Below are positions 5,291 through 40,140 of a stretch of DNA of 64,000 bases, piece by piece. The stretch is from positions 1-64,000 of the forward strand of contig NZ_FMXT01000007.1 of assembly GCF_900104335.1 (NCBI RefSeq). The letters run 5' to 3'. A model generated the notes under the pieces. The model did not search any database and was not told where the DNA came from. It saw nothing but the letters and a program-made list of their open reading frames with translations. The position numbers and the translations under genes are program-made. How positions within the stretch are numbered: the first letter of the stretch is position 1; every line of letters starts with the position of its first letter. This DNA is from Pseudobutyrivibrio sp. YE44. Lineage in GTDB: Bacteria > Bacillota > Clostridia > Lachnospirales > Lachnospiraceae.

Positions 5291-5374
5291 GGCAGTTACA
5301 CTGACAAGCATAATATTACTCCGCTCCACGAGAATGTTTCGCTTGAGTAATACAATAGCTTGTTTACTACTGCC
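5291..5374 (-). repeat. Structured 85-nt element, copy A (upstream of rnz)
   Basis: An imperfect hairpin closed by GGCAGT/ACTGCC. It contains the family-constant ACAAGC/GCTTGT, a middle stem ATTACT/AGTAAT and a weak apical stem. It ends 30 nt before the rnz start and begins 5 nt after the rimI stop. This is the most divergent apical loop of the eight copies. See copies B-H and the findings. Confidence 0.85.
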
Positions 5375-5379
5375 TACTT

Positions 5380-5838
5380 CTAGTTTTTAAAATCTACTTT
5401 TATATCTGCACGCATACATATTGCGTCTTCCACAGGATCATTGTAGAAGTATTTACGAACGCCAATCTGCTCAAAGCCTAGGTGTTCGTATAGAGTGCGT
5501 GCAGGAATATTGGAAACACGAACTTCCAAAAAGATTGTTTCAACATCTTTTTTTCTTAATTCCTCTATAGATTTTTCTAAGAGAAAGCGCCCTACACCAT
5601 TACCACGAAAAGCCTCGTCAACGACTATATCTGGAAGCTCTGCCTCTGGTGGAGTAAGGTAAAAAACCGAAAAACCTGCAAGCTGACCATCTTGTTCTGC
5701 AACAAGAATCATAGAATAATCAGATTCGAAGGCCTCTTCGTAGGATTTAAGAGACCAAGGACTGTTCATTGAAGCCTGTTCCATATGAAATATAGCTTGC
5801 AAATCGTTTTCCTTAGCAAATCTATATGATAAAGCCAT
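5380..5838 (-). CDS. rimI: Ribosomal protein bS18/uS-type N-acetyltransferase RimI
   Basis: A GNAT-fold acetyltransferase of 152 residues. The acetyl-CoA pyrophosphate loop RGNGVG lies at 78-83 after the beta-4 strand PDIVVDEAF, and ARTLYEHLGFEQIGVRKYF gives the usual C-terminal YxxLGF signature. RimI enzymes acetylate the N-terminal alanine of a ribosomal protein. Its start overlaps the tsaB stop (TAATG), which is the classic tsaB-rimI arrangement and supports the name over a generic GNAT. Confidence 0.92.
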   Translation of the reverse strand: MALSYRFAKENDLQAIFHMEQASMNSPWSLKSYEEAFESDYSMILVAEQDGQLAGFSVFYLTPPEAELPDIVVDEAFRGNGVGRFLLEKSIEELRKKDVETIFLEVRVSNIPARTLYEHLGFEQIGVRKYFYNDPVEDAICMRADIKVDFKN

Positions 5839-6557
5839 TAAGCTTTTCCTTCCTTTTTCATCTGTTCCATACGCTCCCGCTCTGCCTGGGACAGTCTAAG
5901 ATACTCTGGACGATGATCTGCTGCTGGCTCACAATCACCATTTGCATAGTAAATTGCACCAAGCGCAGCAACTGACGACGCGTGTTGACGATTGAGATGT
6001 GCAGGTGCAAATTTGTATGGAACCTTAACAATTTCAGATATCTTATCCTTGAACACCGGAACCCCATCACCAAGGAAGGTGACTGGCTGACCATTTGTAT
6101 TAATTGCTTCAGCTATCTCATTAAAATCAACAGCACACTGTGGCTGAACAACCTTAAAATCGCCATTCGACTCAAAAGAATAAAGACCAGTGTAGACCTG
6201 ACCTCGTCTAGCATCCATTATTGGGCAAATGATTGTTTCCTGACCCCAAAGATTGTAGGCCAAAGCATCCACAGTAGGCACTGAAACTATCGGACATCCC
6301 AAAGAAAGCCCCAACCCTTTTGCTGTTGCTGACGCAATTCGAAGACCAGTAAAGGAGCCTGGACCTGCGGCAACTGCTATAGCATCAATCGAATTTAAAT
6401 CAAGCTCTACCATCTTTTTCAACTCATCCAACATTGGCAGTAAAGTCTGTGAATGAGTTTTTTTATAACCTGTGGTGTATTCACCAATTAAATTATCATC
6501 TTCTACAATGGCTACTGAAGCGACTAAGCCTGAGCCATCTATTCCTAAAATCTTCAT
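5838..6557 (-). CDS. tsaB: tRNA t6A biosynthesis protein TsaB
   Basis: TsaB is the non-catalytic ASKHA partner that dimerises with TsaD. The 239 residues show the N-terminal GIDGSGLVASVAIVED strand pair and the PGSFTGLRIASATAKGL loop typical of the family. It lies 14 nt after tsaE and overlaps rimI. The C-terminal PEYLRLSQAERERM extension is common in Clostridia. Confidence 0.95.
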   Translation of the reverse strand: MKILGIDGSGLVASVAIVEDDNLIGEYTTGYKKTHSQTLLPMLDELKKMVELDLNSIDAIAVAAGPGSFTGLRIASATAKGLGLSLGCPIVSVPTVDALAYNLWGQETIICPIMDARRGQVYTGLYSFESNGDFKVVQPQCAVDFNEIAEAINTNGQPVTFLGDGVPVFKDKISEIVKVPYKFAPAHLNRQHASSVAALGAIYYANGDCEPAADHRPEYLRLSQAERERMEQMKKEGKA

Positions 6558-6571
6558 ATAACTGATTTTTC

Positions 6572-7003
6572 CTATATTTGTTCTATTGTAATTTTTCGAT
6601 AATCGAAGCCCTTCTCCAAATCCTTTTCAATGGTGATTCTAGTGTAATGATCTGGGAGAATTTCTTCTATAAGGTTTGCCCATTCTATTAAGGACACACC
6701 ATCTCCATATACATAATCCTCGTAACCGATTTCGTCCATTTCCTCTACATCACCGATTCGATATACATCGAAATGATAAAAGGGAAGTCTACCACTGTCG
6801 TATACCTGAACGATAGTGAAGGTTGGGCTGCAAATAGGCTCATCAATGTTTAGACCTGATGCAAAACCCTGAGTAAAAACGGTTTTTCCAACGCCTAAAT
6901 CTCCGATTAAGGTGAAGACTTGGCCAGGCTCTGCCTGGGAAGCAAGCTTGCGTCCTATTGCATCTGTTTCTTCTGGTGAATTAGTTTCTATTATCTCAAT
7001 CAT
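6572..7003 (-). CDS. tsaE: tRNA t6A biosynthesis ATPase TsaE
   Basis: A small P-loop ATPase of 143 residues that drives turnover of the TsaB-TsaD complex. The Walker A motif GDLGVGKT lies at 34-41. SPTFTIVQVY and YHFDVYR follow, and IEWANLIEEILP is the family tail. It overlaps the upstream ycxB-like gene by 4 nt (ATGA), so translation is probably coupled. Confidence 0.96.
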   Translation of the reverse strand: MIEIIETNSPEETDAIGRKLASQAEPGQVFTLIGDLGVGKTVFTQGFASGLNIDEPICSPTFTIVQVYDSGRLPFYHFDVYRIGDVEEMDEIGYEDYVYGDGVSLIEWANLIEEILPDHYTRITIEKDLEKGFDYRKITIEQI

Positions 7004-7503
7004 TTTATTTGTATTTTATAATCCTCTACGTGATTTTTGATGTATGCAACAGCTGGCTCATACACATCGATAATGTCCTCTTTAGGAATGATGTAGGCAT
7101 TTACCCTGTTGCTGTATATAAGAAGATATTTCTTCCAAGTGGAAACCTTGTAAATATATTCCCATGGAAGCTCTGCTGGCTCGTCTGTTGTAGGCGATGA
7201 AATAACAAGGCCTCGTTCTGTAAGCTCATAATGAAGAGGGTGCATAAACACTTCCTGGGTCATTTGATTCTTAACCCTAAGCTTAAGGCTCATAGGGATA
7301 TAAACCATAATTACCAATGCAAAAACAGGATATAAGCATTTATAAATCATCGAAAGGGTAGATAATCTAAGTGCCCATATAGCAAGCAATAGCACGCCCA
7401 ACAAAATAGACACTATACCCTGACTAGACCTGTAGGCATGATGCAGGTTGAATTTGTATAAATCCTCCTCTTTGATTTTGATATCAAAGCTAATGTTTTC
7501 CAT
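7000..7503 (-). CDS. YcxB-like membrane protein
   Basis: A 167-residue protein with two adjacent membrane segments (about residues 28-48 and 52-72) and a C-terminal beta-rich domain containing LPWEYIYKVSTWKKYLLIYSN. This layout matches YcxB-like proteins (PF14317), whose role is unknown. The match is from memory. It is the first gene of the t6A operon and overlaps tsaE by 4 nt. A promoter and an intervening terminator lie upstream (7647-7768). Confidence 0.75.
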   Translation of the reverse strand: MENISFDIKIKEEDLYKFNLHHAYRSSQGIVSILLGVLLLAIWALRLSTLSMIYKCLYPVFALVIMVYIPMSLKLRVKNQMTQEVFMHPLHYELTERGLVISSPTTDEPAELPWEYIYKVSTWKKYLLIYSNRVNAYIIPKEDIIDVYEPAVAYIKNHVEDYKIQIK

Positions 7504-7589
7504 AATGCACGCAATCTCCCTATTTTTCTTTATTCTAACATATATAGATTATAATCACAAAGTTTCTATTCAGCATACATTCGCAAAAA

Positions 7590-7645
7590 AGACACCTCAT
7601 CCGTCTGCTACGCAGCCACCTTCCCCTCAAGGGGAAGGCTTTTGG
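7590..7645. repeat. GC-rich intergenic hairpin repeat, copy 1
   Basis: It holds GACACCTCATCCG, a TCTGCTACGCAGCC segment, and then the perfect hairpin CCTTCCCC TCAA GGGGAAGG. Related copies lie at 12366-12419 and 49062-49107. The sequence type resembles a small repeat I recall from other Clostridia genomes. It lies between the tex terminator and the ycxB-like gene. Confidence 0.75.
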
Positions 7646-7646
7646 A

Positions 7647-7685
7647 CAAAAAAATAGTGAGTCGAAACCCCTAACGACTCACTAT
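7647..7685 (-). terminator. Rho-independent terminator
   Basis: A perfect 11-bp stem, ATAGTGAGTCG/CGACTCACTAT (7654-7685), is followed on the minus strand by seven T. It lies 165 nt beyond the tex stop codon but also downstream of a strong promoter (7740-7768), so it may end a short independent transcript. Confidence 0.92.
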
Positions 7686-7733
7686 CAATCCATTTCTCCT
7701 AAAAAGCACACTTTCTGTTACTTTTCTTCACTA
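7647..7733 (-). ncRNA. Candidate short RNA or attenuated leader
   Basis: The span runs from the start site predicted by the promoter at 7740-7768 to the U-run of the terminator at 7647-7653, about 85 nt. It could be a stand-alone small RNA or the attenuated leader of the ycxB/tsaE operon, whose first start codon is 144 nt further on. No coding potential beyond a 2-codon frame is visible. Nothing else is evident in 7686-7849. Confidence 0.4.
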
Positions 7734-7739
7734 ATTGAA

Positions 7740-7768
7740 AGTATAGGTATTATAGTGATTATTGTCAA
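7740..7768 (-). promoter_or_regulatory. Promoter upstream of the ycxB/tsaE operon
   Basis: A minus-strand -35 TTGACA (7763-7768) and -10 TATACT (7740-7745) lie 17 bp apart. A second TATAAT lies inside the spacer but too close to the -35. The promoter points into the terminator at 7647-7685. Confidence 0.8.
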
Positions 7769-7849
7769 CAGCAGGTGGGCCTTAGAGTATTATTTTGTAA
7801 GAATGTGACAATTTGTGATAGTCACAACTGTATAGGAAAACTTAAACCT

Positions 7850-10009
7850 TTAAGCTTGCTTATTCTTGTTAAGTTTCATGGTAAGAGCTATTCTGCCTTT
7901 CTTTTCGTCCACAGAAAGAACCTCAACATCAACAATATCCCCTACAGAAACAACTTCCAGAGGATGTTTGATGTAACGGTCTGTCATCTGAGAGATGTGG
8001 ACAAGGCCATCCTGGTGAACGCCGATATCTATGAAAGCACCAAAGTCGATTACATTTCTAACAGTACCTTTAAGCTGCATACCTGGCTTAAGATCTTTCA
8101 TCTCAAGAACATCGCTCTTAAGAATAGGCTTTGGCATATCCTCACGAGGATCACGGCCTGGTTTTTCAAGCTCTTTTACAATATCTTCAAGGGTCATCTC
8201 ACCAACACCAAGTTCTGTGGACAAAGCCTTTATATTAGAAATACTCTTGTGGATATCCTTTAAAGTGCCGGCAGCAATATCCTTAGTATCAAAACCAAGC
8301 TTTTCAAGAAGCGCCTTAGCAGCGTCATAGCTTTCTGGATGAACTGCTGTGGCATCAAGAGGGTTCTTACCTCCAGTTATACGCATAAATCCAGCACACT
8401 GCTCAAAAGCCTTTGGTCCAAGTTTTGGAACCTTCTTAAGCTCTGTTCTAGAATTAAATCTACCATTTGATTCACGGTACTCAACAATATTCTTCGCAAG
8501 AGTCTTGTTAATGCCTGAAACATATTCAAGAAGAGATGCTGAAGCAGTGTTCAAATCAACACCAACTGCGTTAACACAATCCTCTACTACACCTGCAAGA
8601 GTCTCATCAAGCTTCTTCTGATTCATATCATGCTGGTACTGACCAACACCTACAGACTTTGGATCAATCTTTACAAGCTCTGCAAGTGGATCCTGGAGAC
8701 GACGGGCCATGGAAGTGGCTGAACGCTGTCCAACATCAAAGTTAGGGAACTCTTCTGTAGCAAGCTTGCTGGCAGAATAAACTGAAGCCCCCGCCTCATT
8801 TACAATAATATACTCAACCTTTTCAGGAATCTCTTTAAGCATATCCACAATAATCTGCTCTGATTCACGGCTGGCTGTTCCATTACCAAGAGAGATAAGT
8901 GATACATTGTGCTTCTTAATAAGAGTTTTGATAACCTTCTTTGTTTCCTCAACCTTGTTCTGTGGAGCTGTAGGATAAACTACTGTGGTATCAAGAACCT
9001 TTCCTGTAGCATCAACAACTGCAATCTTGCATCCGGTTCTGAAAGCTGGATCCCAGCCAAGTACGTTGCGACCGGCAATTGGAGGCTGCATAAGTAGCTG
9101 GGTAAGGTTCTTACCGAATACTTTGATAGCTCCATCCTCTGCCATCTCAGTAAGATTGTTTCTGATTTCATTTTCGATGGAAGGTGCAATTAGTCTTGTG
9201 TATGCATCTTCAATTGTATCAAGAAGTACCTGATTCGTATTTACGTTATCACGGCTAATTATTTTCTTCTGGAGATAATTAAGGATATCCTCAACTGGAG
9301 CCTCAATGCTCACCTTGAGAATCTTCTCCTTTTCACCACGATTAAGAGCAAGAATTCTGTGACCTGGCAGCTTTGCAATAGCCTCATCATAGTCGTAGTA
9401 ATTCTCATAAACTGATTCTGCCTCAGCATCTTTCGCTTTTGATACTATACGACCGTTTTTGAAAGTCTTCTCTCTAATCCATGTACGATAATCAGCGTCA
9501 TCAGAAATGCTTTCAGCGATGATGTCACACGCGCCAGCGATTGCTTCCTGTGGAGTATTAACTTCCTTTTCCTCGTTAATAAAAGCTTTTGCCTCTTCCT
9601 CAAGAGACTTATCTGTCATCTGAAGGATGATGATATTTGCAAGTGGCTCCAAGCCTTTTTCCTTGGCGATAGTTGCACGAGTACGACGCTTAGGACGATA
9701 TGGGCGATATAAATCATCTACTGCCACCTGAGTTGTTGCCTCAAGAATAGCTTTCCTAAGTTCTTCTGTAAGAAGCCCCTGCTCTTCAATTGATGCAAGA
9801 CAGGTTGCCTTCTTATCTTCCAGATTTCGTAAATACGTTAATCGCTCTGAAAGTGCACGTAGCTGTTCGTCGTTAAGACCGCCAGTGGCTTCCTTTCTGT
9901 ATCGTGAAATAAATGGGACAGTGTTGCCCTCATCTAACAAATTAACGGCTGCCTCAACCTGGGCAGGTCTAACCTGTAATTCTGATGCTATCTGTTTAGT
10001 AATATCCAT
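7850..10009 (-). CDS. tex: Tex-family S1 RNA-binding transcription accessory protein
   Basis: A 719-residue Tex protein of normal length. The N-terminal helical region holds VPFISRYRKEATGGLNDEQLR. A YqgF-like nuclease-fold domain near 325-450 contains GWDPAFRTGCKIAVVDATGK. A helix-hairpin-helix pair follows (NTASASLLEYVSGINKTLA, FNSRTELKKVPKLGPKAFEQ), and a C-terminal S1 domain lies near 640-710 (GTVRNVIDFGAFIDIGVHQD). Tex binds nucleic acid and interacts with the transcription machinery. The start has an AGGAG site. Repeat copy B lies 28 nt upstream. Confidence 0.97.
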   Translation of the reverse strand: MDITKQIASELQVRPAQVEAAVNLLDEGNTVPFISRYRKEATGGLNDEQLRALSERLTYLRNLEDKKATCLASIEEQGLLTEELRKAILEATTQVAVDDLYRPYRPKRRTRATIAKEKGLEPLANIIILQMTDKSLEEEAKAFINEEKEVNTPQEAIAGACDIIAESISDDADYRTWIREKTFKNGRIVSKAKDAEAESVYENYYDYDEAIAKLPGHRILALNRGEKEKILKVSIEAPVEDILNYLQKKIISRDNVNTNQVLLDTIEDAYTRLIAPSIENEIRNNLTEMAEDGAIKVFGKNLTQLLMQPPIAGRNVLGWDPAFRTGCKIAVVDATGKVLDTTVVYPTAPQNKVEETKKVIKTLIKKHNVSLISLGNGTASRESEQIIVDMLKEIPEKVEYIIVNEAGASVYSASKLATEEFPNFDVGQRSATSMARRLQDPLAELVKIDPKSVGVGQYQHDMNQKKLDETLAGVVEDCVNAVGVDLNTASASLLEYVSGINKTLAKNIVEYRESNGRFNSRTELKKVPKLGPKAFEQCAGFMRITGGKNPLDATAVHPESYDAAKALLEKLGFDTKDIAAGTLKDIHKSISNIKALSTELGVGEMTLEDIVKELEKPGRDPREDMPKPILKSDVLEMKDLKPGMQLKGTVRNVIDFGAFIDIGVHQDGLVHISQMTDRYIKHPLEVVSVGDIVDVEVLSVDEKKGRIALTMKLNKNKQA

Positions 10010-10037
10010 GTTGTAACACTCCTAACTTTAGTGACTC

Positions 10038-10123
10038 GCATGTTACGCCTACAAGCCATAGATTTCTACACTCAGCTATAGAAAGCTTCGCTTAAGAAAT
10101 CTATGAGCTTGATGGCTACATGC
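10038..10123 (-). repeat. Structured 85-nt element, copy B (upstream of tex)
   Basis: The outer stem is GCATGT/ACATGC, the middle stem ATAGAT/ATCTAT, and the apical stem AGCT/AGCT around ATAGAA. The constant ACAAGC and GAGCTTG flank the middle stem. It ends 28 nt upstream of the tex ATG and lies 16 nt after the acyltransferase stop. Confidence 0.9.
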
Positions 10124-10139
10124 TATTTTTAAACTTTAA

Positions 10140-11186
10140 TTATAACAACTTCTTCAATTTCGATGACAAGTCGCGGACGATGATTGACGCAATCCATGTA
10201 CAAGCCATGCATACGAGCATCAATGCGAAGATTTCTCGATGGGCAAAATTTTGTATATTCATCTTTGAATAGAATAAAATCATTATTCTGTGATGAGTTA
10301 AGATTATGAACCAGCTTATTCCCGAAAGGTAAGTTATAAACTTATAGCTGTTCTTTTCAGGTGAGATTTCCACATCTCTTAATGCTATTAACATTGTCAT
10401 GCTAATAACAAAATAAATAATCTCGCTTTGTTCTTGACCAAGCTTAAGAAATGCCATGCTAGGAACAAATCCTATAAGGATGAAATATACAAATATCAAT
10501 ACTGACAAAACTGCACAAGTATTCTTAAATGCTTTTGGAACTGCCTTTTCACCGAAAACTTCATGAAGAAACATTCCAATGTAGAAATAAACCATTACAA
10601 AAAGTGGGTTCATCAGCTGTGTAAAAGCAAATGGGTTGTGAATGTAAAGAAGATATACATACCAAGCCATCATAGCAGCAAGCGTAATATATTTAAACTT
10701 TTTAAGAAGCTTGGCTAAAAGTGGAAACAGCAAATAGCATATGACGATGCAAGACATAAACCACTCGCCAATCAAATAAAAGTTAAAAACCACAAGCTGT
10801 GTAACTCCATCCATACCAATCAAAGTAAGAATGAATCTGCTGATAGGAAGGCTATGTCCAACAACCTCTCCATTTACTAAGAAGCAAATTAAAAACATAA
10901 TGGTGTATGCTACGTAAAATGGAATAAAAAGCCCTTTAAAACGACGCTTATAATACTTCACCAGAGAGATTTCATCCTCGTGATTGTACATAAGTGCATA
11001 GCCAGAAATTATAAACAAAAACAGACTGGCTGGACGGGCTAAAATATTAAAGAAATAGGTGTATCCATTTATGGAAGGATCTGGGCCGTTTCCAGAGATA
11101 GTATATTCCACAAAAAAGTGGTAGAAAAATATAAAGACAACACCGATATCTCGTAAGATATCAAGGCCGATGATTCGCTTTTTCAT
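10140..11186 (-). CDS. Acyltransferase-3 family membrane protein
   Basis: A 348-residue integral membrane protein with about ten hydrophobic segments. It opens with KKRIIGLDILRDIGVVFIFFYHF, the family's N-terminal R-x(10)-H signature. GYALMYNHEDEISLVKYYKRRFKGL and a YLIGEWFMSC segment follow. Family members acylate sugars of surface polysaccharides or peptidoglycan, or succinylate glycans. The substrate cannot be told here. It lies 21 nt after the DUF805 gene and has an AAGGAG site. Confidence 0.85.
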   Translation of the reverse strand: MKKRIIGLDILRDIGVVFIFFYHFFVEYTISGNGPDPSINGYTYFFNILARPASLFLFIISGYALMYNHEDEISLVKYYKRRFKGLFIPFYVAYTIMFLICFLVNGEVVGHSLPISRFILTLIGMDGVTQLVVFNFYLIGEWFMSCIVICYLLFPLLAKLLKKFKYITLAAMMAWYVYLLYIHNPFAFTQLMNPLFVMVYFYIGMFLHEVFGEKAVPKAFKNTCAVLSVLIFVYFILIGFVPSMAFLKLGQEQSEIIYFVISMTMLIALRDVEISPEKNSYKFITYLSGISWFIILTHHRIMILFYSKMNIQNFAHREIFALMLVCMACTWIASIIVRDLSSKLKKLL

Positions 11187-11207
11187 AAAATTCTCCTTGT
11201 TGTTTGC

Positions 11208-12266
11208 TTATGCTGCAAACTGATTATTTTCATGTAAAGCTTCTGACAGCTTTATTCTATTATATATTACAATTAACGCAATTGCTCTTACAAATTTACT
11301 ACAATAAATAGTAATACACTCTTGACGCATAGTATGAATGAAAGTTTCATATGCAGAACCAACAAAGAACGGGTCATTATTTCCACCAATTATTGAAAAG
11401 ATTATACCCCAGATAAATGGAACAAAATACAAAACAAAAAATACTTTTGCAGGAATCTTTTTTTCCTTACGGGCACTTACAACCACAATAATTATAAGAG
11501 CACCGAGAATAATGGGTGCGCTATCCCTAATCATCATGAATAGGATTTGACCTACTTTTAAATACTTTAATGGTTCGTTATTAGTAGCTCTCATTATCCC
11601 AATAATATATGCAGGAATATCCAAAAGTGATAATCCCGCTCCGATTATTGTAAATTTCTGATTCCTTGTAAAGTCAAACATTATGAAGATAAAAGAAATA
11701 CTTGCAAGAATGTATAACGGAACATCGCTAAGTCTCATAACTGAAACACCCAATGGGCTTGTTATATCAAACCATATAGCATATCCAATCATTACTAATA
11801 TTTTAGTAACAAAAAGAAGCGCCATAACAATGTTTATCATTTTTCTGTTATTTATCTCTGCAAGAATTATATCATTACCTTCTAGTGGCTTAGGACTATC
11901 GCCATACTCATTAGACAATGGTGATGAATCACGAACAAAAAGATAAATCATGCACGCACAATAAGCGCTCAAAAGGCTTGTTAAAATACCACCCCATTCA
12001 TCACTTGGCATAAGCAATGTAATTGTTATACATGGGAAAAGAGCTATCCACCCTTTCATTCCTATATCATGGAGTCTTCTAACCTGAAAAGATAAAGACG
12101 AAAGTCCCACAATGAAATAAAGCATATATACCAAAATATTGTAATTATATTCAAAAAGATAAATATGCATAAGTCTGATTCCAATGGTAACAAACCACAA
12201 GACCAACATTCCCTTAAAAAATTCTCTTCTTCTTATTCTGCTACTATAATCAAAATATTTTTTCAT
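11208..12266 (-). CDS. DUF805-domain membrane protein
   Basis: The 352-residue protein begins with a DUF805 domain of about 120 residues: KKYFDYSSRIRRREFFKGML, several hydrophobic segments and the hallmark RRLHDIGMKGW. The remaining 230 residues hold about six more membrane segments and are not recognised. DUF805 proteins are usually only about 120-150 residues, so this is an extended version. It pairs with the acyltransferase downstream. No function is known. Confidence 0.8.
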   Translation of the reverse strand: MKKYFDYSSRIRRREFFKGMLVLWFVTIGIRLMHIYLFEYNYNILVYMLYFIVGLSSLSFQVRRLHDIGMKGWIALFPCITITLLMPSDEWGGILTSLLSAYCACMIYLFVRDSSPLSNEYGDSPKPLEGNDIILAEINNRKMINIVMALLFVTKILVMIGYAIWFDITSPLGVSVMRLSDVPLYILASISFIFIMFDFTRNQKFTIIGAGLSLLDIPAYIIGIMRATNNEPLKYLKVGQILFMMIRDSAPIILGALIIIVVVSARKEKKIPAKVFFVLYFVPFIWGIIFSIIGGNNDPFFVGSAYETFIHTMRQECITIYCSKFVRAIALIVIYNRIKLSEALHENNQFAA

Positions 12267-12354
12267 GTTTTTGTCCTTTTCGTTTGCTTATATATTACAA
12301 AGCCGATTGTTTCATTATACAGATGCCCCGTAATAAAGTAAACCGAGGCGAACG

Positions 12355-12419: not shown

Positions 12420-12428
12420 TTTGTTTTC

Positions 12429-12794: not shown

Positions 12795-12813
12795 TTTATC
12801 TTCTACCCCCTAA

Positions 12814-16439: not shown

Positions 16440-16491
16440 AAAAATTTCCCCCTTACTTTAAAATAATTTAATAGCACTACCTCCACAACCC

Positions 16492-16576
16492 GCTAGTTAC
16501 GCTTACAAGCCTTAGTATTACTCCGCTCGACTAACACGTCTCGCTAAAGTAATCTAAGAGCTTGTCAGCTACTAGC
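16492..16576 (-). repeat. Structured 85-nt element, copy C (glpK-glpF gap)
   Basis: The outer stem is GCTAGT/ACTAGC, the middle stems are CTTAG/CTAAG and ATTACT/AGTAAT, and the apical stem is GAC/GTC. The element lies 52 nt upstream of glpF, inside the glycerol operon, so it would be transcribed in the same mRNA as both genes. Confidence 0.9.
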
Positions 16577-16652
16577 TCATGTTAATAATGCAAACACTCT
16601 CTTAAATTATGAAGGGTGCTTATTGTTCAATTTGTATTTACGACGCACGCTA

Positions 16653-19796: not shown

Positions 19797-19880
19797 GCGG
19801 TTACGCCTACAAGCCATAGATATCTTCGCTCACCCACAGAAAGGTTCACTTAAGACATCTATGAGCTTGATGTCTACCGC
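19797..19880 (-). repeat. Structured 85-nt element, copy D (hom-thrH gap)
   Basis: The outer stem is GCGGT/ACCGC, the middle stem CATAGAT/ATCTATG, and the apical stem ACC/GGT. It lies 18 nt upstream of thrH, the tightest spacing of the family, and 46 nt after the hom stop. Read as protein its left arm gives the false N-terminal extension ACRRNR. Confidence 0.92.
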
Positions 19881-21671: not shown

Positions 21672-21723
21672 GCATTCCATTTTTTCTTTCTTGCTCGCGC
21701 CACCAAGTATTTCTATGGAATGC
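21672..21723 (-). other. Long hairpin downstream of prfB
   Basis: The 8-bp stem GCATTCCA/TGGAATGC encloses a 36-nt loop with an inner CTTG/CAAG stem. It lies 43 nt after the prfB stop. There is no clear U-run on the minus strand, so it may be a weak terminator or a 3' stability element. Confidence 0.45.
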
Positions 21724-22929: not shown

Positions 22930-23018
22930 GCCTGTCACGCTCTCAAGCCTGAGATATTACTCAGCTCAGCTATAGAAAGCTTCGCTGGAGTAACACTCAG
23001 AGCTAGATAGCTACAGGC
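22930..23018 (-). repeat. Structured 85-nt element, copy E (upstream of prfB)
   Basis: The outer stem is GCCTGT/ACAGGC, the middle stems are CTGAG/CTCAG and TTACTC/GAGTAA, and the apical stem is AGCT/AGCT. At 89 nt it is the longest single copy. It deviates in having GCTAG where other copies have GCTTG. It lies 25 nt upstream of the prfB GTG. Confidence 0.87.
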
Positions 23019-30395: not shown

Positions 30396-30478
30396 GTCGG
30401 TTACGCCTACAAGCCTTAGCTCTTCTCTCTCGGCTAATACGCCTCATTCAAAGACCTAAGAGCTTGATGTCTACCGAC
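30396..30478 (-). repeat. Structured 85-nt element, copy F (upstream of ridA)
   Basis: The outer stem is GTCGGT/ACCGAC, the middle stem CTTAG/CTAAG, and the apical stem GGC/GCC around TAATAC. It ends 20 nt before the ridA start, leaving just the ribosome binding site between them. Confidence 0.92.
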
Positions 30479-32144: not shown

Positions 32145-32230
32145 GCTGGTTATGGTAACAAGCCATATATCTCTACATTCAGCTGAAGAAAGCTTCATTT
32201 AAGAGATATATGAGCTTGTTAACTACCAGC
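32145..32230 (-). repeat. Structured 85-nt element, copy G (upstream of thioesterase gene)
   Basis: The outer stem is GCTGGT/ACCAGC, the middle stem is an 11-bp perfect CATATATCTCT/AGAGATATATG, and the apical stem is AGCT/AGCT. The terminator of tRNA-Gln lies 61 nt away on the other side, so this copy sits in the leader of a new transcript rather than between two protein genes. Confidence 0.92.
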
Positions 32231-32329: not shown

Positions 32330-32401
32330 CTGGCCCACAAGGATTCGAACCTTGAAATGACGGAGTCAGAGTCCGTTGCCTTACCATTTGGCGATGGGCC
32401 A
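32330..32401 (-). tRNA. tRNA-Gln (anticodon CUG)
   Basis: A 72-nt tRNA with acceptor stem TGGCCCA/TGGGCCA, the U1-A72 pair and G73 typical of glutamine tRNAs. The anticodon loop CTCTGAC gives CUG, and the T arm has GGTTCGAATCC. CCA is not encoded. Confidence 0.95.
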
Positions 32402-33147: not shown

Positions 33148-33196
33148 AGACCAATCTCACTTTTAAAATCTGTTACTTCATTATATAGGATTATTT

Positions 33197-33205
33197 TGGT
33201 ATAAT
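33197..33205 (+). promoter_or_regulatory. Extended -10 promoter of the PBP gene
   Basis: TGGTATAAT, with perfect TATAAT at 33200-33205, lies 22 nt before the start codon at 33228. The -35 region (TTCATT) is poor. This would give a very short leader. Confidence 0.65.
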
Positions 33206-33227
33206 GAAGTCTAAATTGGAGGTTATT

Positions 33228-35810
33228 ATGAATTACGGAAAAGAAAATGCAGCTAAGCAATCAGCCAAGCTTGCAGGACGAGGAAAGCGAAAGCGCCATA
33301 GCGCTGGGCTTGCCGTTATCCGAATCGCTTTGATTTGTGTCGTTTCTGTAGTAATCGCTGGCGGTATTATTGCTTACCTCTATGCCAGAAATCTAATAGA
33401 CGAGTTGCCGGATGTATCTACCATAGATATTTCCCCAACAGGATATTTAAGTACAGTCTATGATTCAGATGGAAAAGAAATTGAAACCCTAGCTTCAACA
33501 GGTGCCAATAGAACCTACGTGAAATTGGATCAGATTCCTAAGGATTTACAACATGCTTTTGTCGCTATAGAGGATTCTCGATTCTATGAACACAATGGTG
33601 TAGACATTCAGGGTATTATCCGAGCTGGTGTAACCGGAGTTTCAAATGGGTTCCACTTCTCACAGGGTGCTTCAACAATCACCCAGCAGTTATTAAAGAA
33701 TAACTATTTCACAACCTGGACTTCCGAGCGAACAAAGATGGACAGCTTGAACCGAAAGATTCAGGAGCAGTATTTAGCAGTGCAGCTTGAAAAAATAGTT
33801 TCTAAGGACACTATCCTTGAAAACTATCTTAACAGTATCAACCTAGGTCAAAATACTTTAGGTGTTGAGTCTGCAGCACAGAGATATTTCAATAAGTCAG
33901 TTTCAGATTTGACACTTTCTGAAAGCTCTGTCATAGCTGGTATCACTCAGAACCCATCGCGATTCAATCCTATTACACATCCAGAAGAAAATGCTAAGCG
34001 CCGCAAAAAGGTATTAGGCGACATGCTCAGTCAGGGCTTTATCGATCAAACACAATACGAGGAAGCCTTAGCAGATGATGTGTATGGAAGAATTCAGGTA
34101 TTAAATACTGAGCTTTCAAGTTCATCAACTTCATATTTTGTAGATGCTCTTACAGATGAAATCGTGGAAGATTTACAGGATAAGCTTGGCTACTCAGAGT
34201 CTGAAGCATACGCTTTGTTATACTCAGGCGGTCTTTCAATTTATACAACACAGGATTCTAACATCCAGTCAATTGTTGAAGAAGAGATTAACAATACAGA
34301 TAATTATAAGGATATTAAGAAGGTTTCCTTCTCATATCGACTCACCGTAAACAAAGCAGATGGTTCTACAAAGAATTACTCAGATATCACAATGCTTTCC
34401 TACTATCAATCAAGCAACAAGAGCTACAATCTTGAGTTTGATTCAGAAGAGGATGCAGCCGCAGCTATAGAGGCTTACAAGGCAGCTATCATGGAAGATG
34501 GCGACACAGTTGGTGGCGAATCCATCACCTACACCCTTCAGCCACAGGCTGCCATGACCATTATCAACCACTCTACAGGCGAAGTAGTTGCCATGGTAGG
34601 TGGTAGAGGCGATAAGACAGCAGCAAAGACCTTGAACCGTGCCACAGGCATTAAGCGTCAGCCAGGTTCAACCTTCAAGGTAATCGCCTGCTACGCAGCA
34701 GCCTTAGATGCAGGCGGAATGACACTTGCTTCCGTTGAAAACGATATGCCAACAACCTACCAGAATGGAACACCGGTTAAGAACTACAACAATGCTTACC
34801 TGGGATGGACAAACATCAGAACAGCCATCACCAATTCCATCAACGTAGTAACAATCGAGGTTATGGCCGACATTGGTACAAGCCTTGGCTACCAATACGC
34901 AAAGGATTTAGGCATCACAACACTTTCTGACAAGGATAACAACCAGGCACTTGCCTTAGGTGGAATCACAGACGGTGTTACAAACTTAGACTTAACTGCC
35001 GCTTACTCAACTATCGCAAACGGCGGCGAATACAACAAACCTATCTTCTACACAACTGTTGTAGATCATCAGGGCAACATCATCTTAGACAACAGAGAAA
35101 ACACCCCTACTCGAGTGCTTAAAGAAACTACTGCATGGCTATTAACCAGCGCAATGCAAGACGTTATGACTCAGGGTACTGGTAAAGCTGCAAACTTTGA
35201 AGGCATGCCAGTTGCAGGTAAATCTGGTACCACCACAAAGAATAAGGATACGGTTTTCGCAGGCTTCACACCTTACTATACAGGCGTTATCTGGGGTGGT
35301 TTTGATGACAATACACCACAGAGCTACACTACCTACTCAAAGGTAATTTGGAAGGCTGTAATGAGTCGTATCAACGAAGGCTTGCCTAGCAAGAACTTCA
35401 CTCAACCTTCAGGAATCGTCACCTGCCAGGTTTGCAAGAAATCTGGCAAGCTTGCAGTTCCAGGCGTTTGCGATTGCGACCCACGAGGCTCAATGGTTTA
35501 CACTGAATACTTCGAGGAAGGTACACAGCCTACGGAATACTGCGACCACCACTATCTCGGTAGCGTATGTACACAGTCTCACATGTTCGCAAACTCTACA
35601 TGCCCTTACTACTCAGGCGTATTTATCATCGGAGCAGGCCCTGGCTCACAGGATGAACCATACGGCGTGGATGCCGGCAAGTTCGGACAGTACTGTCCAC
35701 TTCATCCAGGCGAGCCACTTCCAAACTCAGGTTCCTTCGGAGGCTCAGCCTCTGGCAACACACAACCATCCACCGACGACATCCAAATCCAAGTCATCGG
35801 CGGCGAATAA
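33228..35810 (+). CDS. Class A penicillin-binding protein (PBP1A type)
   Basis: A bifunctional peptidoglycan glycosyltransferase/transpeptidase of 860 residues. A basic head and a membrane helix (about 27-50) precede the GT51 domain with EDSRFYEHNGVD and QGASTITQQLLKN. The transpeptidase domain has SxxK in RQPGSTFKVI (Ser near 480), SIN near 537 and KSGTT near 664. The C-terminal 160 residues are Cys-rich (CQVCKKSG, CDCDPRG, YCDHHY, CTQSH), a tail seen in Clostridia PBPs. The ATG at 33228 follows TTGGAGG. It is the only large plus-strand gene and converges on the inverted repeat. Confidence 0.95.
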   Translation: MNYGKENAAKQSAKLAGRGKRKRHSAGLAVIRIALICVVSVVIAGGIIAYLYARNLIDELPDVSTIDISPTGYLSTVYDSDGKEIETLASTGANRTYVKLDQIPKDLQHAFVAIEDSRFYEHNGVDIQGIIRAGVTGVSNGFHFSQGASTITQQLLKNNYFTTWTSERTKMDSLNRKIQEQYLAVQLEKIVSKDTILENYLNSINLGQNTLGVESAAQRYFNKSVSDLTLSESSVIAGITQNPSRFNPITHPEENAKRRKKVLGDMLSQGFIDQTQYEEALADDVYGRIQVLNTELSSSSTSYFVDALTDEIVEDLQDKLGYSESEAYALLYSGGLSIYTTQDSNIQSIVEEEINNTDNYKDIKKVSFSYRLTVNKADGSTKNYSDITMLSYYQSSNKSYNLEFDSEEDAAAAIEAYKAAIMEDGDTVGGESITYTLQPQAAMTIINHSTGEVVAMVGGRGDKTAAKTLNRATGIKRQPGSTFKVIACYAAALDAGGMTLASVENDMPTTYQNGTPVKNYNNAYLGWTNIRTAITNSINVVTIEVMADIGTSLGYQYAKDLGITTLSDKDNNQALALGGITDGVTNLDLTAAYSTIANGGEYNKPIFYTTVVDHQGNIILDNRENTPTRVLKETTAWLLTSAMQDVMTQGTGKAANFEGMPVAGKSGTTTKNKDTVFAGFTPYYTGVIWGGFDDNTPQSYTTYSKVIWKAVMSRINEGLPSKNFTQPSGIVTCQVCKKSGKLAVPGVCDCDPRGSMVYTEYFEEGTQPTEYCDHHYLGSVCTQSHMFANSTCPYYSGVFIIGAGPGSQDEPYGVDAGKFGQYCPLHPGEPLPNSGSFGGSASGNTQPSTDDIQIQVIGGE

Positions 35811-35822
35811 ATCCAAAGTCCT

Positions 35823-35860
35823 AGCGGCCCCCACATCCTATTGTGGCGGGTCGCTTTTTT
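35823..35860 (+). terminator. Rho-independent terminator of the PBP gene
   Basis: The hairpin AGCGGCCCCCACA/TGTGGCGGGTCGCT is followed by TTTTTT, 12 nt after the PBP stop codon. It is also the outer end of the left arm of the inverted repeat. Confidence 0.92.
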
Positions 35861-36484
35861 CTTGCCCTCCAAATCATCTTCCCTGCCCCGCCCCTGTCCA
35901 CCGGCTACCCACACCAGGCACCCTTGCAAAGCCAAAGAATTTGTATTTTCTAAATGCTACACTGCGCTTTCTTTATTGAAGGTGTCTTTTCAATTCCTTG
36001 CACTTTTATCGCAACTGTATGTATTGCTCAGACACACAAAAATTTTCAGTAATGCTCCCCCTCAGGGTATATAACTATCAGTTGCTGTAATTTGGAGTGC
36101 GCTTAGTAAAATAAAAAGCAGGTTTTGTATGTATAGGCAGCAGCCGCTAGGACGACGGCTGCAGTGGTCACTTGAGACACGATGTTGAATGTGCCACGGT
36201 GACTATACATTCAAAACCTGCTTTTTTAATTTTACTTAGCAAGCGGAGTATGGAAGCAACTGATAGTTATATACCCTGAGGGGGAGCATTATTTATACTT
36301 ACAAGTGTCTGTGCTATACATACAGTTGCTTCAAAGTGCAACACCAATGAAAAGACACCTTCTAAAAGCTCGTTTGTAGCATTAAGAAAATACAAAATTC
36401 TTTGTCAATCATGCAAGGATGACCTGGTGTGGGTAGCCGGTGGACAGGGACGGGGGCCGGGGTTTATAGAAAAAGGTGGGCACG

Positions 36485-36520
36485 AAAAAAGCGACCCCCA
36501 GGAGAAGAATGGGAGCCGCT
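36485..36520 (-). terminator. Rho-independent terminator of the ABC ATPase gene
   Basis: On the minus strand AGCGGCTCCC pairs with GGGGGTCGCT and is followed by TTTTTT. It is the mirror image in position and similar in sequence to the PBP terminator, and forms the outer end of the right arm. Confidence 0.88.
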
Positions 36521-36525
36521 ATGGT

Positions 36526-38172
36526 TTAGATTTCTAGGTGGCCGGCGCAGATGAGTCGTCCAGATTTTCTGTCGAAAAGGAGGATGTCGTTGCCGTTGAT
36601 GTTGATTTTTTCCTTTTGGCCGATTTGGTAGATGACGCCTCCGAAGATGACGCTGGTAAGGAGGAAGTCGCCTACGCGAAGCTTCAGGGTTGACTCCATA
36701 CCAGTAGGCATTGCGCCGTAGATATCTGTGTCGATGCCGCCATTTTCGTCGATGTCGATGGCTTCAGGACGGATGCCGAGGACAAAGTCTTCGTCGGTGA
36801 TGATAGGGTCTTCAAGAAGGCTTTCGTCTACTTCTTCAACCTTTTGTACATGGTATCTAAAGACTTCGTCTTTGTTGCTCTTTTCTACAGCACCCTTCTT
36901 TGATAAGCGCTGTTTTTCTGCCTCAGCTTTTTCTGCAAGGCTCTGGTCACGGACGTGACGCCATGCATTCATATCAAGTGAATATTCAGGAACGAATTTT
37001 GCCTTGATGTCTCCTAGTATAGTAAGAGAGAGATTTCCATCTGCCTCCTGGATTCCTTTTGCGTCTACGAAGTTCATAGAAGGATTTCCTACGAAATCAG
37101 CTACAAAAAGGTTGGATGGACGGTTGTAAACTGTAAGTGGTGGCGCATACTGCTGCAATACACCGTTGTTTACTAGGCAAATCTTAGTTGCAAGAGTCAT
37201 GGCCTCCATCTGATCGTGGGTAACGTATACGAAGGTGCTTCCAGTTTCTACGTGAAGACGTTGGAGCTCGTATCTCATTTCAAGACGAAGCTTTGCATCA
37301 AGGTTTGAAAGTGGCTCATCCATGAAAAGTACCTGTGGCTCTGGCGCAAGGGTTCTAGCGATAGCAACACGCTGCTGCTGTCCACCTGAAAGCTCTGCAG
37401 GATATCTGTCCATGAACATACCAATCTTTACGATTCGTGAACATGCACGAACTCTTGAATCGATTTCTTCCTTTGTAAGCTTTCTCTTAGAAACAAGAAC
37501 CTTTCCATCCTTAAGGATTTCAAATTTCTCGTTGAGGCTCTTGCCATCTGCTGCAAGATTCTTTTTGATTGTTTCAAGCTCACCCTCGTACTTGATAACA
37601 AAATTTGCTGCAGCATCTTCTGGATTACTTGAAGTATGCACGCCAAGTCCCATAAGCTCTTTTGCTGTATAGATAGACATTGTGTAAGTATCAATAAGCT
37701 TTATAAGAGCCTTGCCTTCATCAAGCTTGCCGTTTTTATCGCGGCACTCTTCTACAACTTCCTTAATTCGTACACCTGTCTTTAAGGCACGAATCATATC
37801 AGAAGCCTGTTTAGCCTTAACATCCACCTGAGGAAGCTCCTCATCAATGTTCTTAAGACCGAAAGAGATATTTTCATAAACTGTCATGTTTGGCCAAAGA
37901 GCGTAGTTCTGGAAAAGGAATCCTACCTTTCTCTTATTGGCTGGCACGTTGATACCTGCGTTGCTATCGAAGACTACCTTGTCTCCGATAGTGATGCGTC
38001 CTTCAGTTGGTGTTTCAAGACCTGCAATCATACGAAGGATTGTTGTCTTTCCACATCCTGATGGACCAAGCAAGGTTATAAATGAATTGTCAGGAATGTC
38101 TAAGCTTACGTTGTCTACGCCAAAGAACTTTCCCCAACGCTTTGTTATATTCTCCAATTTGATTTCTGGCAT
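36526..38172 (-). CDS. ABC importer ATPase with large helical-domain insertion
   Basis: A 548-residue CUT1/Fbp-type ATPase, much longer than the usual 350. Walker A GPSGCGKTT is near 36-44, the Q-loop is in FLFQNYALWPNM, the signature [15 protein letters not shown] begins near 261, Walker B is VLFMDEPLSNLDAK, and the switch is VTHDQMEA. About 115 extra residues lie between FGLK and the signature, where about 36 are normal. A second insertion with an EKAEAEKQRLSKKG helix splits the C-terminal TOBE region. I start at 38172 behind GGAGG. It is the last gene of the importer operon. Confidence 0.9.
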   Translation of the reverse strand: MPEIKLENITKRWGKFFGVDNVSLDIPDNSFITLLGPSGCGKTTILRMIAGLETPTEGRITIGDKVVFDSNAGINVPANKRKVGFLFQNYALWPNMTVYENISFGLKNIDEELPQVDVKAKQASDMIRALKTGVRIKEVVEECRDKNGKLDEGKALIKLIDTYTMSIYTAKELMGLGVHTSSNPEDAAANFVIKYEGELETIKKNLAADGKSLNEKFEILKDGKVLVSKRKLTKEEIDSRVRACSRIVKIGMFMDRYPAELSGGQQQRVAIARTLAPEPQVLFMDEPLSNLDAKLRLEMRYELQRLHVETGSTFVYVTHDQMEAMTLATKICLVNNGVLQQYAPPLTVYNRPSNLFVADFVGNPSMNFVDAKGIQEADGNLSLTILGDIKAKFVPEYSLDMNAWRHVRDQSLAEKAEAEKQRLSKKGAVEKSNKDEVFRYHVQKVEEVDESLLEDPIITDEDFVLGIRPEAIDIDENGGIDTDIYGAMPTGMESTLKLRVGDFLLTSVIFGGVIYQIGQKEKININGNDILLFDRKSGRLICAGHLEI

Positions 38173-38173
38173 T

Positions 38174-39979
38174 TTACTTTCCTCCAATTCCGCTGTCGAG
38201 GCTAGCTCCAGTCAGCTTGTTAACTAAGGTATTAAAAACAAGAATTGTGACAATCAAAATCAGGTTGATTGCACTTGAGAAGGCATATAATCCCATCTCG
38301 TCGAAGTAATCAAGGGTTGTTGATAAAATAAAGCCCTGAGTACATAAGAGAAGGAATAATGACAACTCTCTTAAGCAAGTCATAAATGGAAGAAGGTATC
38401 CGCTTATGATTGATGATTTCTGAATAGGAATGATGATTCTTGTCATTCTCTTTATCCATGATGCATTCTGGATGATTGCAGCTTCCTCAAGCTCGTTGCT
38501 TATTTGAAGCATAGAGTTAAGTGAGCTTCGCGATGCAAATGGAATGTATTTTACAACACCGGCAATAATAAGAAGTGTGTAGGTGTTGAAAAGGTTGATA
38601 CGCTCATTTGAGAAGAGAATGAAGAAGGCTGCACCAACAGCGATTGATGGCATCAAATATGGAAGGAATGCCACGTTGTTAACGTAGTTAGCCCACTTAT
38701 TTCTTCTCTTCTTAGCTACAGCGTAGCCAATGAGTGTTCCTATAGTTCCAGCTATCAGAGCACAAACCACTGCAAGGAAAAGTGTTCCAAAGAAGGCGTG
38801 CCAGATAGTGTTGTTGTAAAGGATTCCCGGTTGACCATACATACCGTTTTCGGTAATGTTTTCGTTTGTCACCCACCACTTGGTAGTAAGGTGTGCAAGG
38901 TTTCCTGTGTAAAGGAAGCTGTAGTCTCCCGGGTTTGGAAGGAAGGTCTCAAGTGCAAACAATAGGATTGGCCATATACTTGTGAAGAAAGTAATAAAGA
39001 TGAAAATAATACCCACAAGATACTTGCCAATTTTGCCGATTCTAATTTTTGTAAGCTGACCTGACTTACCGGTAACAGTTGTATAGTTCTTTCTACTCTT
39101 CAAACTCATCTGGTTCATACCAAGGATGATTACACCGAATACCATCATAATGATTGCAAGGATTGATGCCTCACCGGTGTACATACTATTCATTGAGATG
39201 TACTTTGTAGAAAGAGTTGTAAGATTCAAATAATGTGGAACTGGATATGAGCCCATTGCACTACCAAATACAAGAAGAATGGTAGAAAGGATAGCTGGCT
39301 TAATCATTGGAAGTGTAACCTTTCTCATGATTTTCCACTTTGGAGTATCAAGAATGGTTGCAGCCTCCTCTAAGTTAGCATCCATGTTTTTGAAAATTCC
39401 ACCGATTAAAATGTAAGCAAATGGTGCATAGTGAAGACCTAAAACCATGGCACTTGGGAATGCACCCTGACACCACCAGCTTGGGAAATATATATGAAAA
39501 ATTGCTGCTAATAATCCATCTGAAGTTCCAGTAACCTTGTTACTGTAAAACATATGCTGCCACACAACTGCAAGTGTCCACTGTGGCATGATGTATGGAA
39601 AAATAAAAATTGAGCTTAAATATCTTTTAAATTTCATATCTGTTCGAGTTACCAAAAACGCAAACAGACCACCAAACAAAATTGAAATAAAACAAGTTAA
39701 AACCGAAAGAATTACTGTGTTTAAAAGTGGTATCCAAAGATTTGTTTTTGCCAGGCGGCTAGTAAACAAATCCACATAATTTACTAACGTATAGCCCGTT
39801 ACCTGACCGGTAAGATGCTGGTCGATTGTTCCAGGATGAATCTTCATTGTATCCTGAACTATGGCAACAATTGGGGCTACCGTAGAAAAGGTTAAGACAA
39901 TGCCAAACAGCAACAGGATTATGTTCTGTGGCTGCGAGAACCAAGTCTTAACTTTATTCTTAAAAATAGCCTTAGTCAT
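38174..39979 (-). CDS. ABC importer permease, fused two-domain type
   Basis: A 601-residue integral membrane protein with about 12 helices, made of two BPD-type permease halves in one chain as in FbpB or AfuB importers. Two EAA coupling loops are visible: EEAATILDTPKWKIM in the first half and EEAAIIQNASWIKRM in the second. The ATG at 39979 follows AAAGGAG. A longer frame reads through repeat copy H. It ends 1 nt before the ATPase start. Confidence 0.92.
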   Translation of the reverse strand: MTKAIFKNKVKTWFSQPQNIILLLFGIVLTFSTVAPIVAIVQDTMKIHPGTIDQHLTGQVTGYTLVNYVDLFTSRLAKTNLWIPLLNTVILSVLTCFISILFGGLFAFLVTRTDMKFKRYLSSIFIFPYIMPQWTLAVVWQHMFYSNKVTGTSDGLLAAIFHIYFPSWWCQGAFPSAMVLGLHYAPFAYILIGGIFKNMDANLEEAATILDTPKWKIMRKVTLPMIKPAILSTILLVFGSAMGSYPVPHYLNLTTLSTKYISMNSMYTGEASILAIIMMVFGVIILGMNQMSLKSRKNYTTVTGKSGQLTKIRIGKIGKYLVGIIFIFITFFTSIWPILLFALETFLPNPGDYSFLYTGNLAHLTTKWWVTNENITENGMYGQPGILYNNTIWHAFFGTLFLAVVCALIAGTIGTLIGYAVAKKRRNKWANYVNNVAFLPYLMPSIAVGAAFFILFSNERINLFNTYTLLIIAGVVKYIPFASRSSLNSMLQISNELEEAAIIQNASWIKRMTRIIIPIQKSSIISGYLLPFMTCLRELSLFLLLCTQGFILSTTLDYFDEMGLYAFSSAINLILIVTILVFNTLVNKLTGASLDSGIGGK

Positions 39980-40005
39980 ATTATTCTCCTTTAGAATTGA
40001 AGTCC

Positions 40006-40140
40006 GTCGGTTACGACTACAATTAGTCCGTCGGTTACGACTACAAGCCATAGATATCTCCGCTCACCCTAGAAAGGTTCGCTTGAGACATCTATGAGCT
40101 TGATATCTACCGACTCTTCGATAGTTTGATGTCTACCGAC
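40006..40140 (-). repeat. Structured 85-nt element, copy H (nested double copy)
   Basis: A complete copy at 40030-40114 has outer stem GTCGGT/ACCGAC, middle stem CATAGAT/ATCTATG and apical stem ACC/GGT. It is flanked by an extra left arm (40006-40022, GTCGGTTACGACTACAA) and an extra right arm (40124-40140, TTTGATGTCTACCGAC). The whole looks like one element placed inside another. It lies 26 nt upstream of the permease start, between the binding-protein and permease genes. Confidence 0.9.

Follow-up and report, generated by a model that had tools for sequence, protein, structure and literature searches.

A small structured repeat, present as eight intergenic copies in a stretch of 64,000 nucleotides (nt) from Pseudobutyrivibrio sp. 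YE44 (contig NZ_FMXT01000007.1, positions 1 to 64,000; the whole stretch is called the window below), belongs to a new family of small structured repeats that is specific to one genus and combines mobile-element habits with an unusual liking for hairpins. Its outer closing stem is often prolonged by the stem of a host hairpin that holds the element in its loop and is in many cases an intrinsic terminator; this feature was invisible to the sequence-only prediction in which the copies were first noticed (the original prediction). The reading that we favour, with a probability of roughly 0.58, is that of a small non-autonomous palindromic element, genus-specific and high-copy, which inserts into hairpins. 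It draws on the fold, the number and intergenic placement of the copies, their presence or absence at corresponding sites, their nesting and their position in terminator loops, all read from DNA sequence. Among the matches listed in the openly licensed literature, no description of this element or of a hairpin-inserting habit was found.

The eight window copies

All eight proposed copies were present at the predicted positions and were used to build a covariance model (R1). The eighth (40006-40140) was indeed there, but not as one unit: it consists of a complete copy held between the two arms of a second, outer copy. The copies, their scores with R1 and their neighbours were as follows.

Copy 1: 5291..5374, minus strand, 79.4 bits; between a GNAT acetyltransferase gene (stop 5380) and a metallo-beta-lactamase-fold gene (start 5260)
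Copy 2: 10038..10123, minus strand, 100.8 bits; between an acyltransferase-3 gene and tex (start 10009)
Copy 3: 16492..16576, minus strand, 89.5 bits; between an FGGY carbohydrate kinase gene and an aquaporin-family (MIP) gene
Copy 4: 19797..19880, minus strand, 88.1 bits; between homoserine dehydrogenase and a HAD hydrolase gene
Copy 5: 22930..23018, minus strand, 81.2 bits; between an S41 peptidase gene and prfB (release factor 2, programmed frameshift)
Copy 6: 30396..30478, minus strand, 79.9 bits; between a CvfB-like S1-domain gene and an L-PSP-family gene
Copy 7: 32145..32230, minus strand, 95.1 bits; between a tRNA gene (32330-32401, minus strand) and an acyl-ACP thioesterase gene
Copy 8, inner complete copy: 40030..40114, minus strand, 100.7 bits; follows a gene without Pfam match (40183-41562) and precedes an ABC permease gene (start 39979)
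Left (5') arm of the outer copy enclosing copy 8: 40115..40140, minus strand, from sequence and fold
Right (3') arm of the outer copy enclosing copy 8: 40006..40029, minus strand, from sequence and fold

On the minus strand, where the genes are also encoded, R1 scored the copies at 79-101 bits, against at most 26.7 bits on the plus strand and 12.3 bits for the best match elsewhere in the window. The minus strand also gave the more stable fold in 8/8 copies, with a small gap between the strands for copy 7 (-39.8 vs -39.3). The distance from the copy to the next start codon was 17-52 nt in all eight, for starts as chosen by a custom gene-calling script; for copies 4, 6 and 8 the longest open reading frame (ORF) would begin within the copy, for copy 5 the distance runs to the GTG with which the frameshifted prfB starts (approximately 25 nt), and for copy 8 it was taken from the outer arm. 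The annotated neighbours (20 proteins, including tex, prfB, homoserine dehydrogenase, the aquaporin family and the ABC permease) had no common function, and the linkage to one pathway that is a feature of riboswitches and regulon leaders was absent among them.

Fold and covariation

The core of the element is about 75 nt long, starts with GTAG at its 5' end and finishes with GTAAC at its 3' end. At its base, the fold has a six-pair closing stem that ends in G-C and U-A and leads into a 1 x 3 internal loop in which A faces GUA. Next come three pairs of variable sequence, a small loop and the CAAGC/GCUUG helix; beyond a bulged U there are some eleven further variable pairs and then an asymmetric loop. 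The tip is made up of two pairs, the tandem G-A mismatches, another four pairs and a loop of roughly six nucleotides.

Over the eight window copies, 95.1% of the cells of this 31-pair structure were standard pairs, and two-sided changes occurred in 16/31 pairs. Neither the pairing fraction nor the count of two-sided changes was matched in any of 500 shuffles, and pairing fell to 26-40% when the partner was shifted by 1 to 3 columns; the structure, having been derived from the same eight copies, has an advantage in this control. In an enlarged alignment of 108 rows, which includes an opposite-strand match of copy 2 and leans towards the structure of the model to which it was fitted, 96.2% of the cells paired and double changes were seen in 28/31 pairs. 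The covariation claimed for the stems thus proved very strong, which argues for selection on a folded single strand.

Several unpaired positions were nearly fixed: the A (100%), the bulged U (98%) and the G and U of GUA (98-99%). In most copies the G and U of the initial GTAG were paired with C and A (the commonest pair was kept in 103 and 106 of the 108 rows) and its last base was paired in 105/108 rows, leaving the A alone unpaired. Quasi-palindrome correction was rejected as a source of the covariation, as the fixed unpaired positions persist. No Rfam 15 family overlapped any of the eight copies, in searches of the whole window at gathering score and of positions 4000-41000 at E up to 10, in line with the expectation that no described family would match.

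Copy number and taxonomic range

A search of the YE44 genome (3.24 Mb) with R1 gave at least 102 places at E up to 10, with the best 150 of 592 candidates scored. Applied to 70 genome stretches and the window, the model gave 108 matches at E up to 0.001, from which one opposite-strand match was subtracted; the search proposed along with the first eight copies therefore extended the family to at least 107 copies in its own genome. The units are 82-94 nt long, and the weakest score 34-45 bits. One longer member of the family (L182, C19:214559-214713 in the same genome; L designates loci, G genomes and C contigs) carries an extra insert of about 75 nt near the position of the tandem G-A mismatches.

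The family was found in 27/29 genomes of the genus (YE44 included) and in 0/32 genomes outside it. In a second, partly overlapping draw of 397 genomes of the taxonomic family, matches were obtained only in 2 of the same genus. No more than the best 74 candidates per genome were scored in the first genus draw and no more than the best 11 in the 397-genome draw; because a limited number was scored, copy numbers are lower bounds and distant members could escape.

Filled and empty sites between species

For the comparison of gaps, relatives L109-L131 were gathered via homoserine dehydrogenase (69-96% identity; 22/23 Pseudobutyrivibrio and one Butyrivibrio fibrisolvens 16/4). Among 49 loci, R1 gave 20 matches, all of them within 14 of these 23 relatives. 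The same gaps were filled in some relatives and empty in others, the outcome for which the original prediction had proposed to look. With the window included in each count, a copy was present in 6/24 loci in the homoserine dehydrogenase gap, in 10/20 in the prfB gap on the S41 peptidase side, in 1/14 in the kinase-aquaporin gap (absent from 13/13 relatives in which the gap was found) and in 1/18 in the cvfB gap (no full copy in 17/17 relatives in which the gap was found). In the cvfB gap, relics were recognised by eye in three relatives, and the outer stem was retained in L126 and L115.

Close relatives differed in the same manner. L109, the nearest locus in homoserine dehydrogenase (96%), was empty at 4/4 window sites compared, and genome G017 (92-96% protein identity) was empty at four of four terminator sites (described below). 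In the gap after prfB, the copy of L121 was oriented opposite to those of L119 and L109. Variation in whether a given site is filled, from one related genome to another, is a general feature of small mobile structured repeats and was observed here, with the direction of change unpolarised.

Copies within hairpins, terminators and one another

In the YE44 genome, 30/107 copies had at least three extra flush pairs beyond the six-pair stem. When right flanks were swapped between copies (1000 trials), the mean was 5 and the maximum 14. Extended stems were found in 12/23 copies between convergent genes, 7/20 antisense copies and 11/60 sense copies. A run of T (at least five in the 8 nt after the copy) followed 7/23 convergent, 1/20 antisense and 1/60 sense copies; at least five A in the 8 nt before the copy, which is a T-run on the other strand, preceded 16/23, 12/20 and 25/60, respectively, in AT-rich surroundings. 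Matched flank types were also in excess: GA before with GG after in 28 copies (13 expected), and TA before with GA after in 13 copies (2.5 expected).

Four terminator sites were compared between genomes, at the 3' ends of the genes for threonine synthase, an acetyl-CoA hydrolase/transferase-family protein, alanine racemase and a BacA-family protein (Pfam assignments). For alanine racemase, 27/29 loci were analysed, and across all four sites five loci proved too short. A total of 21 copies lay no farther than 220 nt from the gene end, and 16 of them extend the stem by at least five pairs; as the sites had been picked for the extended stem of YE44's own copy, only the relatives' 17 copies count. 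Among these 17, which are partly non-independent (L250 and L253 hold nearly the same copy) and include one about 200 nt from the gene (L203), 12 lengthen the outer stem by five or more flush pairs; after 8 of the 12, at least five T occur in 9 nt. With the element replaced by a tetraloop, a strict script called a terminator in only 10/21 copies. Applied to the 83 loci without a copy at the four sites, the same script recognised a bare terminator in 37; it found none in the other 46, several of which show one by eye.

The threonine synthase site illustrates the arrangement. In YE44 the copy is enclosed by GAGCCCCTAAG...CTTAGGGGCTT (the enclosing stem is also given as GAGCCCCTA...TAGGGGCT), and G017 has the plain terminator GAGCCCCTA-TTTTT-TAGGGGCTC, with no element. 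The copies of G022 and G005 lie within related stems, and L207 and L211 carry a bare GAGCCCTTAGGGCTC followed by T. Remnants in L252 and L281 are now terminator-like by eye. A bare GTAGTAAC-loop hairpin was considered as a general footprint of the element, and a scan of 1.68 Mb of loci found it in one relative only; it is not general.

Copies also enclose one another. Both arms of an outer shell were found by script around 7/107 copies, and around none in reversed flanks; the left-arm pattern of the script is weak (35 left-only matches vs 27 left matches in reversed flanks), and the both-arms count alone was used. After one case was judged spurious (L067) and another was added by eye (L066), 7/107 nested copies were convincing. 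In relatives, stacked left and right arms were counted by eye as 4 and 2 in L124, 2 and 1 in L125 and 3 and 3 in L127, and L292 resembles a nested form of the single copy in L290. Local copying is suggested by the resemblance of the stacked arms to each other.

A second structured intergenic repeat family, with the motif GGCGCGAG or GCAAGCGCGAG and a length of about 50-200 nt, occurs in the same kinds of gap: in the kinase-aquaporin gap (L117, L118, L119, L126 and L128), after homoserine dehydrogenase (L125 and L127), after prfB (L118 and the window, approximately 21672-21723) and at threonine synthase (L197, apparently inside the terminator). It gave no Rfam match at gathering score in L118, L125, L127 and L110. 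By eye, window copy 3 may lie within the remains of a hairpin of this second repeat (approximately 16577-16621 and 16473-16491).

Placement and orientation relative to genes

With genes called by the custom script, 107/107 copies were intergenic. The script assigned 60 as sense between co-directional genes, 20 as antisense, 23 as convergent, 3 as divergent and 1 to a contig end. Copy 7 was miscalled divergent because a spurious small ORF overlies the tRNA gene; it is truly sense by hand, which brings divergent placement to 2/107 vs 3/107 by script. Counted per gap in the same stretches, divergent gaps were avoided (2/101 filled vs 27/243 unfilled, p = 0.005) and convergent gaps were enriched over co-directional ones (21 to 78 filled against 8 to 208 unfilled, p = 2e-6).

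Sense copies outnumbered antisense copies by 60 to 20 (p = 9e-6) and lay a median of 29 nt ahead of the next start codon. In the other classes the 3' side of the copy faced a stop codon, at a median of 17 nt (antisense) or 21 nt (convergent). The rule that the element always lies upstream of a start codon in one orientation therefore held in the window but not genome-wide, where upstream-of-start placement is one of two habits. Randomness in orientation and position, which the original prediction had named as an outcome that would count against it, was likewise not found: all copies were intergenic, divergent gaps were avoided and sense orientation prevailed. In L072 (8439-8633), L101 (2501-2701) and L058 (2501-2700), two oppositely oriented copies lie about 30 nt or less apart, an arrangement reminiscent of REPIN doublets.

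Selection on the folded strand and a possible RNA role

Copies were compared in 76 nearest-neighbour pairs at 75% identity or more, excluding the loop-closing pair. Differences at paired positions were two-sided and paired in 250 cases, one-sided and paired in 66, one-sided and broken in 61 and two-sided and broken in 17, against 22, 93, 464 and 29 in a simple neutral simulation; the first class could have been enlarged by the swapping of entire hairpin modules from copy to copy. G-U pairs outnumbered A-C by 101 to 12 without the loop-closing pair and by 105 to 25 with it, which indicates that one folded strand matters.

Such compensated differences, with 250 double changes against 61 one-sided breaks, are also what a cis-acting RNA would leave. 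Transcribed with the upstream gene, it would fold between the stop codon and the ribosome-binding site and govern cleavage of the mRNA, protection of its 3' end or translation of the gene that follows, and selection would keep each site. The sense bias, the location past the stop codon and shortly ahead of the next start in the sense class, and the excess of G-U over A-C all fit this explanation, for which there is a precedent in the transcribed bcr repeats of the Bacillus cereus group (available part of PMC3446304). The explanation is nevertheless rather unlikely. The neighbours in the window have no function in common, many relatives lack a copy in the same gaps, 20 copies are antisense and 23 lie between convergent genes. 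In addition, a constraint borne by the transcript predicts that the G-U excess be reversed in antisense copies; there it was weaker (15 vs 5, p = 0.04; difference from the sense class p = 0.12) but unreversed, which speaks against selection solely through the surrounding transcript. The antisense excess could also stem from inheritance from the donor copy.

Known repeats, transposases and growth in place

Small intergenic palindromes in many copies are familiar from the RUP, BOX and ERIC repeats. These belong to other hosts, and to our knowledge neither this pairing pattern nor a hairpin-in-hairpin habit is on record for them. The bcr1-bcr3 MITE-like repeats of the B. cereus group are alike by description, being structured, intergenic and often located in untranslated regions or gaps within operons (available part of PMC3446304). 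IS1397, ISPsy8 and other REP-targeting insertion sequences share the insertion into palindromes, with ISPsy8 landing on the axis of symmetry of a predicted REP hairpin (available part of PMC1525189); unlike them, which are full insertion sequences with a transposase, the repeat described here is non-coding and shorter than 100 nt, and its hosts include transcription terminators.

Another candidate explanation is kinship with the GTAG REPs and REPINs, with mobilisation by one of the REP-associated Y1 tyrosine transposases (RAYTs). GTAG REPs are palindromic, carry GTAG at the 5' foot of the folded strand and occur in many intergenic copies, preferentially between unidirectional and convergent genes (available part of PMC3733652), as does our repeat; fixed stem mismatches, moreover, matter for TnpA-REP of E. 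coli (available part of PMC8266576) and are found here too. The differences are substantial. The units of 82-94 nt are two to four times longer than the 20-40 bp of REPs, GTAG is mostly within the paired stem and not an unpaired tag, the repeat occupies terminator loops, and no cognate RAYT flanked by the repeat was found. Y1_Tnp matches occurred in 8 of the 18 genomes searched among the 29 of the genus, and none was found in several element-rich, near-complete genomes; G012 (69 matches of R1) and G013 (70) are examples of element-rich genomes without a match. The YE44 genome holds only Y1_Tnp fragments, at contig ends, and 0/21 Y1_Tnp loci, with short flanks only, contained an R1 match. The repeat is also limited to one genus of the Lachnospiraceae, and the main text of PMC3733652, as far as available, does not contain the words 'Firmicutes' or 'Clostridi'. 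A Y1 REP transposase as the mover is therefore unlikely, and a RAYT-mobilised REP is an improbable account of the family. The Y1 (IS200-type) fragments, at the ends of contigs C6, C8, C12 and C21, suggest a multi-copy insertion sequence that broke the assembly.

Growth without transposition is slightly less probable still. Terminator or intercistronic hairpins would be lengthened in place by template switching or arm duplication, giving matched arms and nested shells with no enzyme. The likeness of nested arms at one site (L124, L125 and L127; L292 vs L290) agrees with this, and so does the surplus of left over right arms in L124 and L125, which suggests local copying. Unrelated sites, however, share a core down to its details, among them unpaired features that would be lost under arm-to-arm correction, and the element is confined to one genus in the genomes searched.

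Integron attC sites were considered for the GTTAC at one end and set aside by the order of the conserved ends and by the dispersal of the copies; no integrase search was made. There is also a possible resemblance to TTAC, the target of IS608-like elements.

A proposed mobile element settling in hairpins

Of the roles initially offered for the element, which included an RNA processing or translation-control function, the mobile palindrome is best supported, by the filled and empty sites, the nesting and the more than 100 copies in a genome of one genus. According to the reading that we favour, the element would spread by settling in hairpin loops: those of intrinsic terminators, of its own copies and possibly of another repeat. 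The host stem would close directly on the basal pairs of the element (G-C, U-A), because of which a terminator would retain its stem and T-run and insertion beside genes would be tolerated. A trans-acting enzyme would recognise one folded strand, most likely as single-stranded DNA, and such recognition would also explain the landing in hairpins. The conserved object is the folded strand itself, with its covarying paired arms and fixed unpaired features (A opposite GUA, the bulged U and the tandem G-A mismatches).

Filled sites probably represent insertions rather than survivors of loss, and we infer that an enzyme acting in trans moves the element. The intermediate would be single-stranded DNA, not RNA, and termination presumably still works with the element in the terminator loop. 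The complete picture, in which a hairpin spreads into hairpins, its own included, with concentric stems, terminators as safe landing sites and a non-Y1 machinery that is single-stranded-DNA or RNA-templated, is plausible but tentative, and we hold it at somewhat below even odds.

For a possible autonomous form, exact arm patterns only were used (82 left and 84 right matches). The 17 left-arm orphans comprised one long copy, one shell of a nested copy and 15 others, 14 of these in open frames of at least 282 nt. The 12 right-arm orphans comprised the same long copy, three nested shells, four relics and four in open frames of at least 264 nt. No gene lay within an element. The right-arm relics lie shortly after gene ends in the YE44 genome (C23:327229, L184; C16:214392, L181; C21:16566, L090; C12:101332, L050), and no comparable left-arm relic was found among the 15 left-arm orphans checked. 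With respect to the features of a miniature inverted-repeat transposable element (MITE), the whole element is an inverted repeat.

A number of observations weigh against insertion into hairpins. No target-site duplication was recognised by eye in the flanks, and no autonomous long form was found among the orphan arms matched by exact patterns. The best pair of copies is 93.2% identical and the median nearest neighbour 84%; as near-identical copies are absent, no recent burst is visible, and either the spread is not recent or copies diverge quickly. The outer-stem relics in L126 and L115 indicate that deletion also happens, filled and empty sites were compared without polarising gain and loss on a tree, and copies at one site may be orthologous, maintained and not new. 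The sense bias exceeds what a symmetric DNA palindrome would need. As to the hairpins, 36/107 copies have neither an extended stem nor either standard flank type, T-runs are rare after antisense and sense copies (one each), and the terminator comparison carries the burdens given above, namely the choice of the sites, the partial dependence and the distant copy among the 17, the modest yield of the strict script and the 46 loci in which it called neither copy nor terminator.

Other features of the window

The gene prfB (release factor 2) occupies 21767 to approximately 22904 on the minus strand, and the ORF list shows its second frame only; the apparent CTTTGAC is presumably its programmed frameshift site. 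In the permissive Rfam search only, a TwoAYGGAY RNA (RF01731) was matched at 36092-36251 on the plus strand (52 bits vs a gathering score of 43).

Implications

If the favoured reading is true, a repeat can reach more than 100 sites in a compact genome with little harm, by way of terminator loops and intercistronic hairpins whose stems are kept closed. With its very strong covariation, its many sites that are filled or empty and its naturally nested copies, the family would make target choice, orientation and the missing enzyme testable in cultured rumen bacteria. It would also carry a warning for RNA-motif searches: strong covariation among copies can signal a mobile element and not a regulatory RNA.

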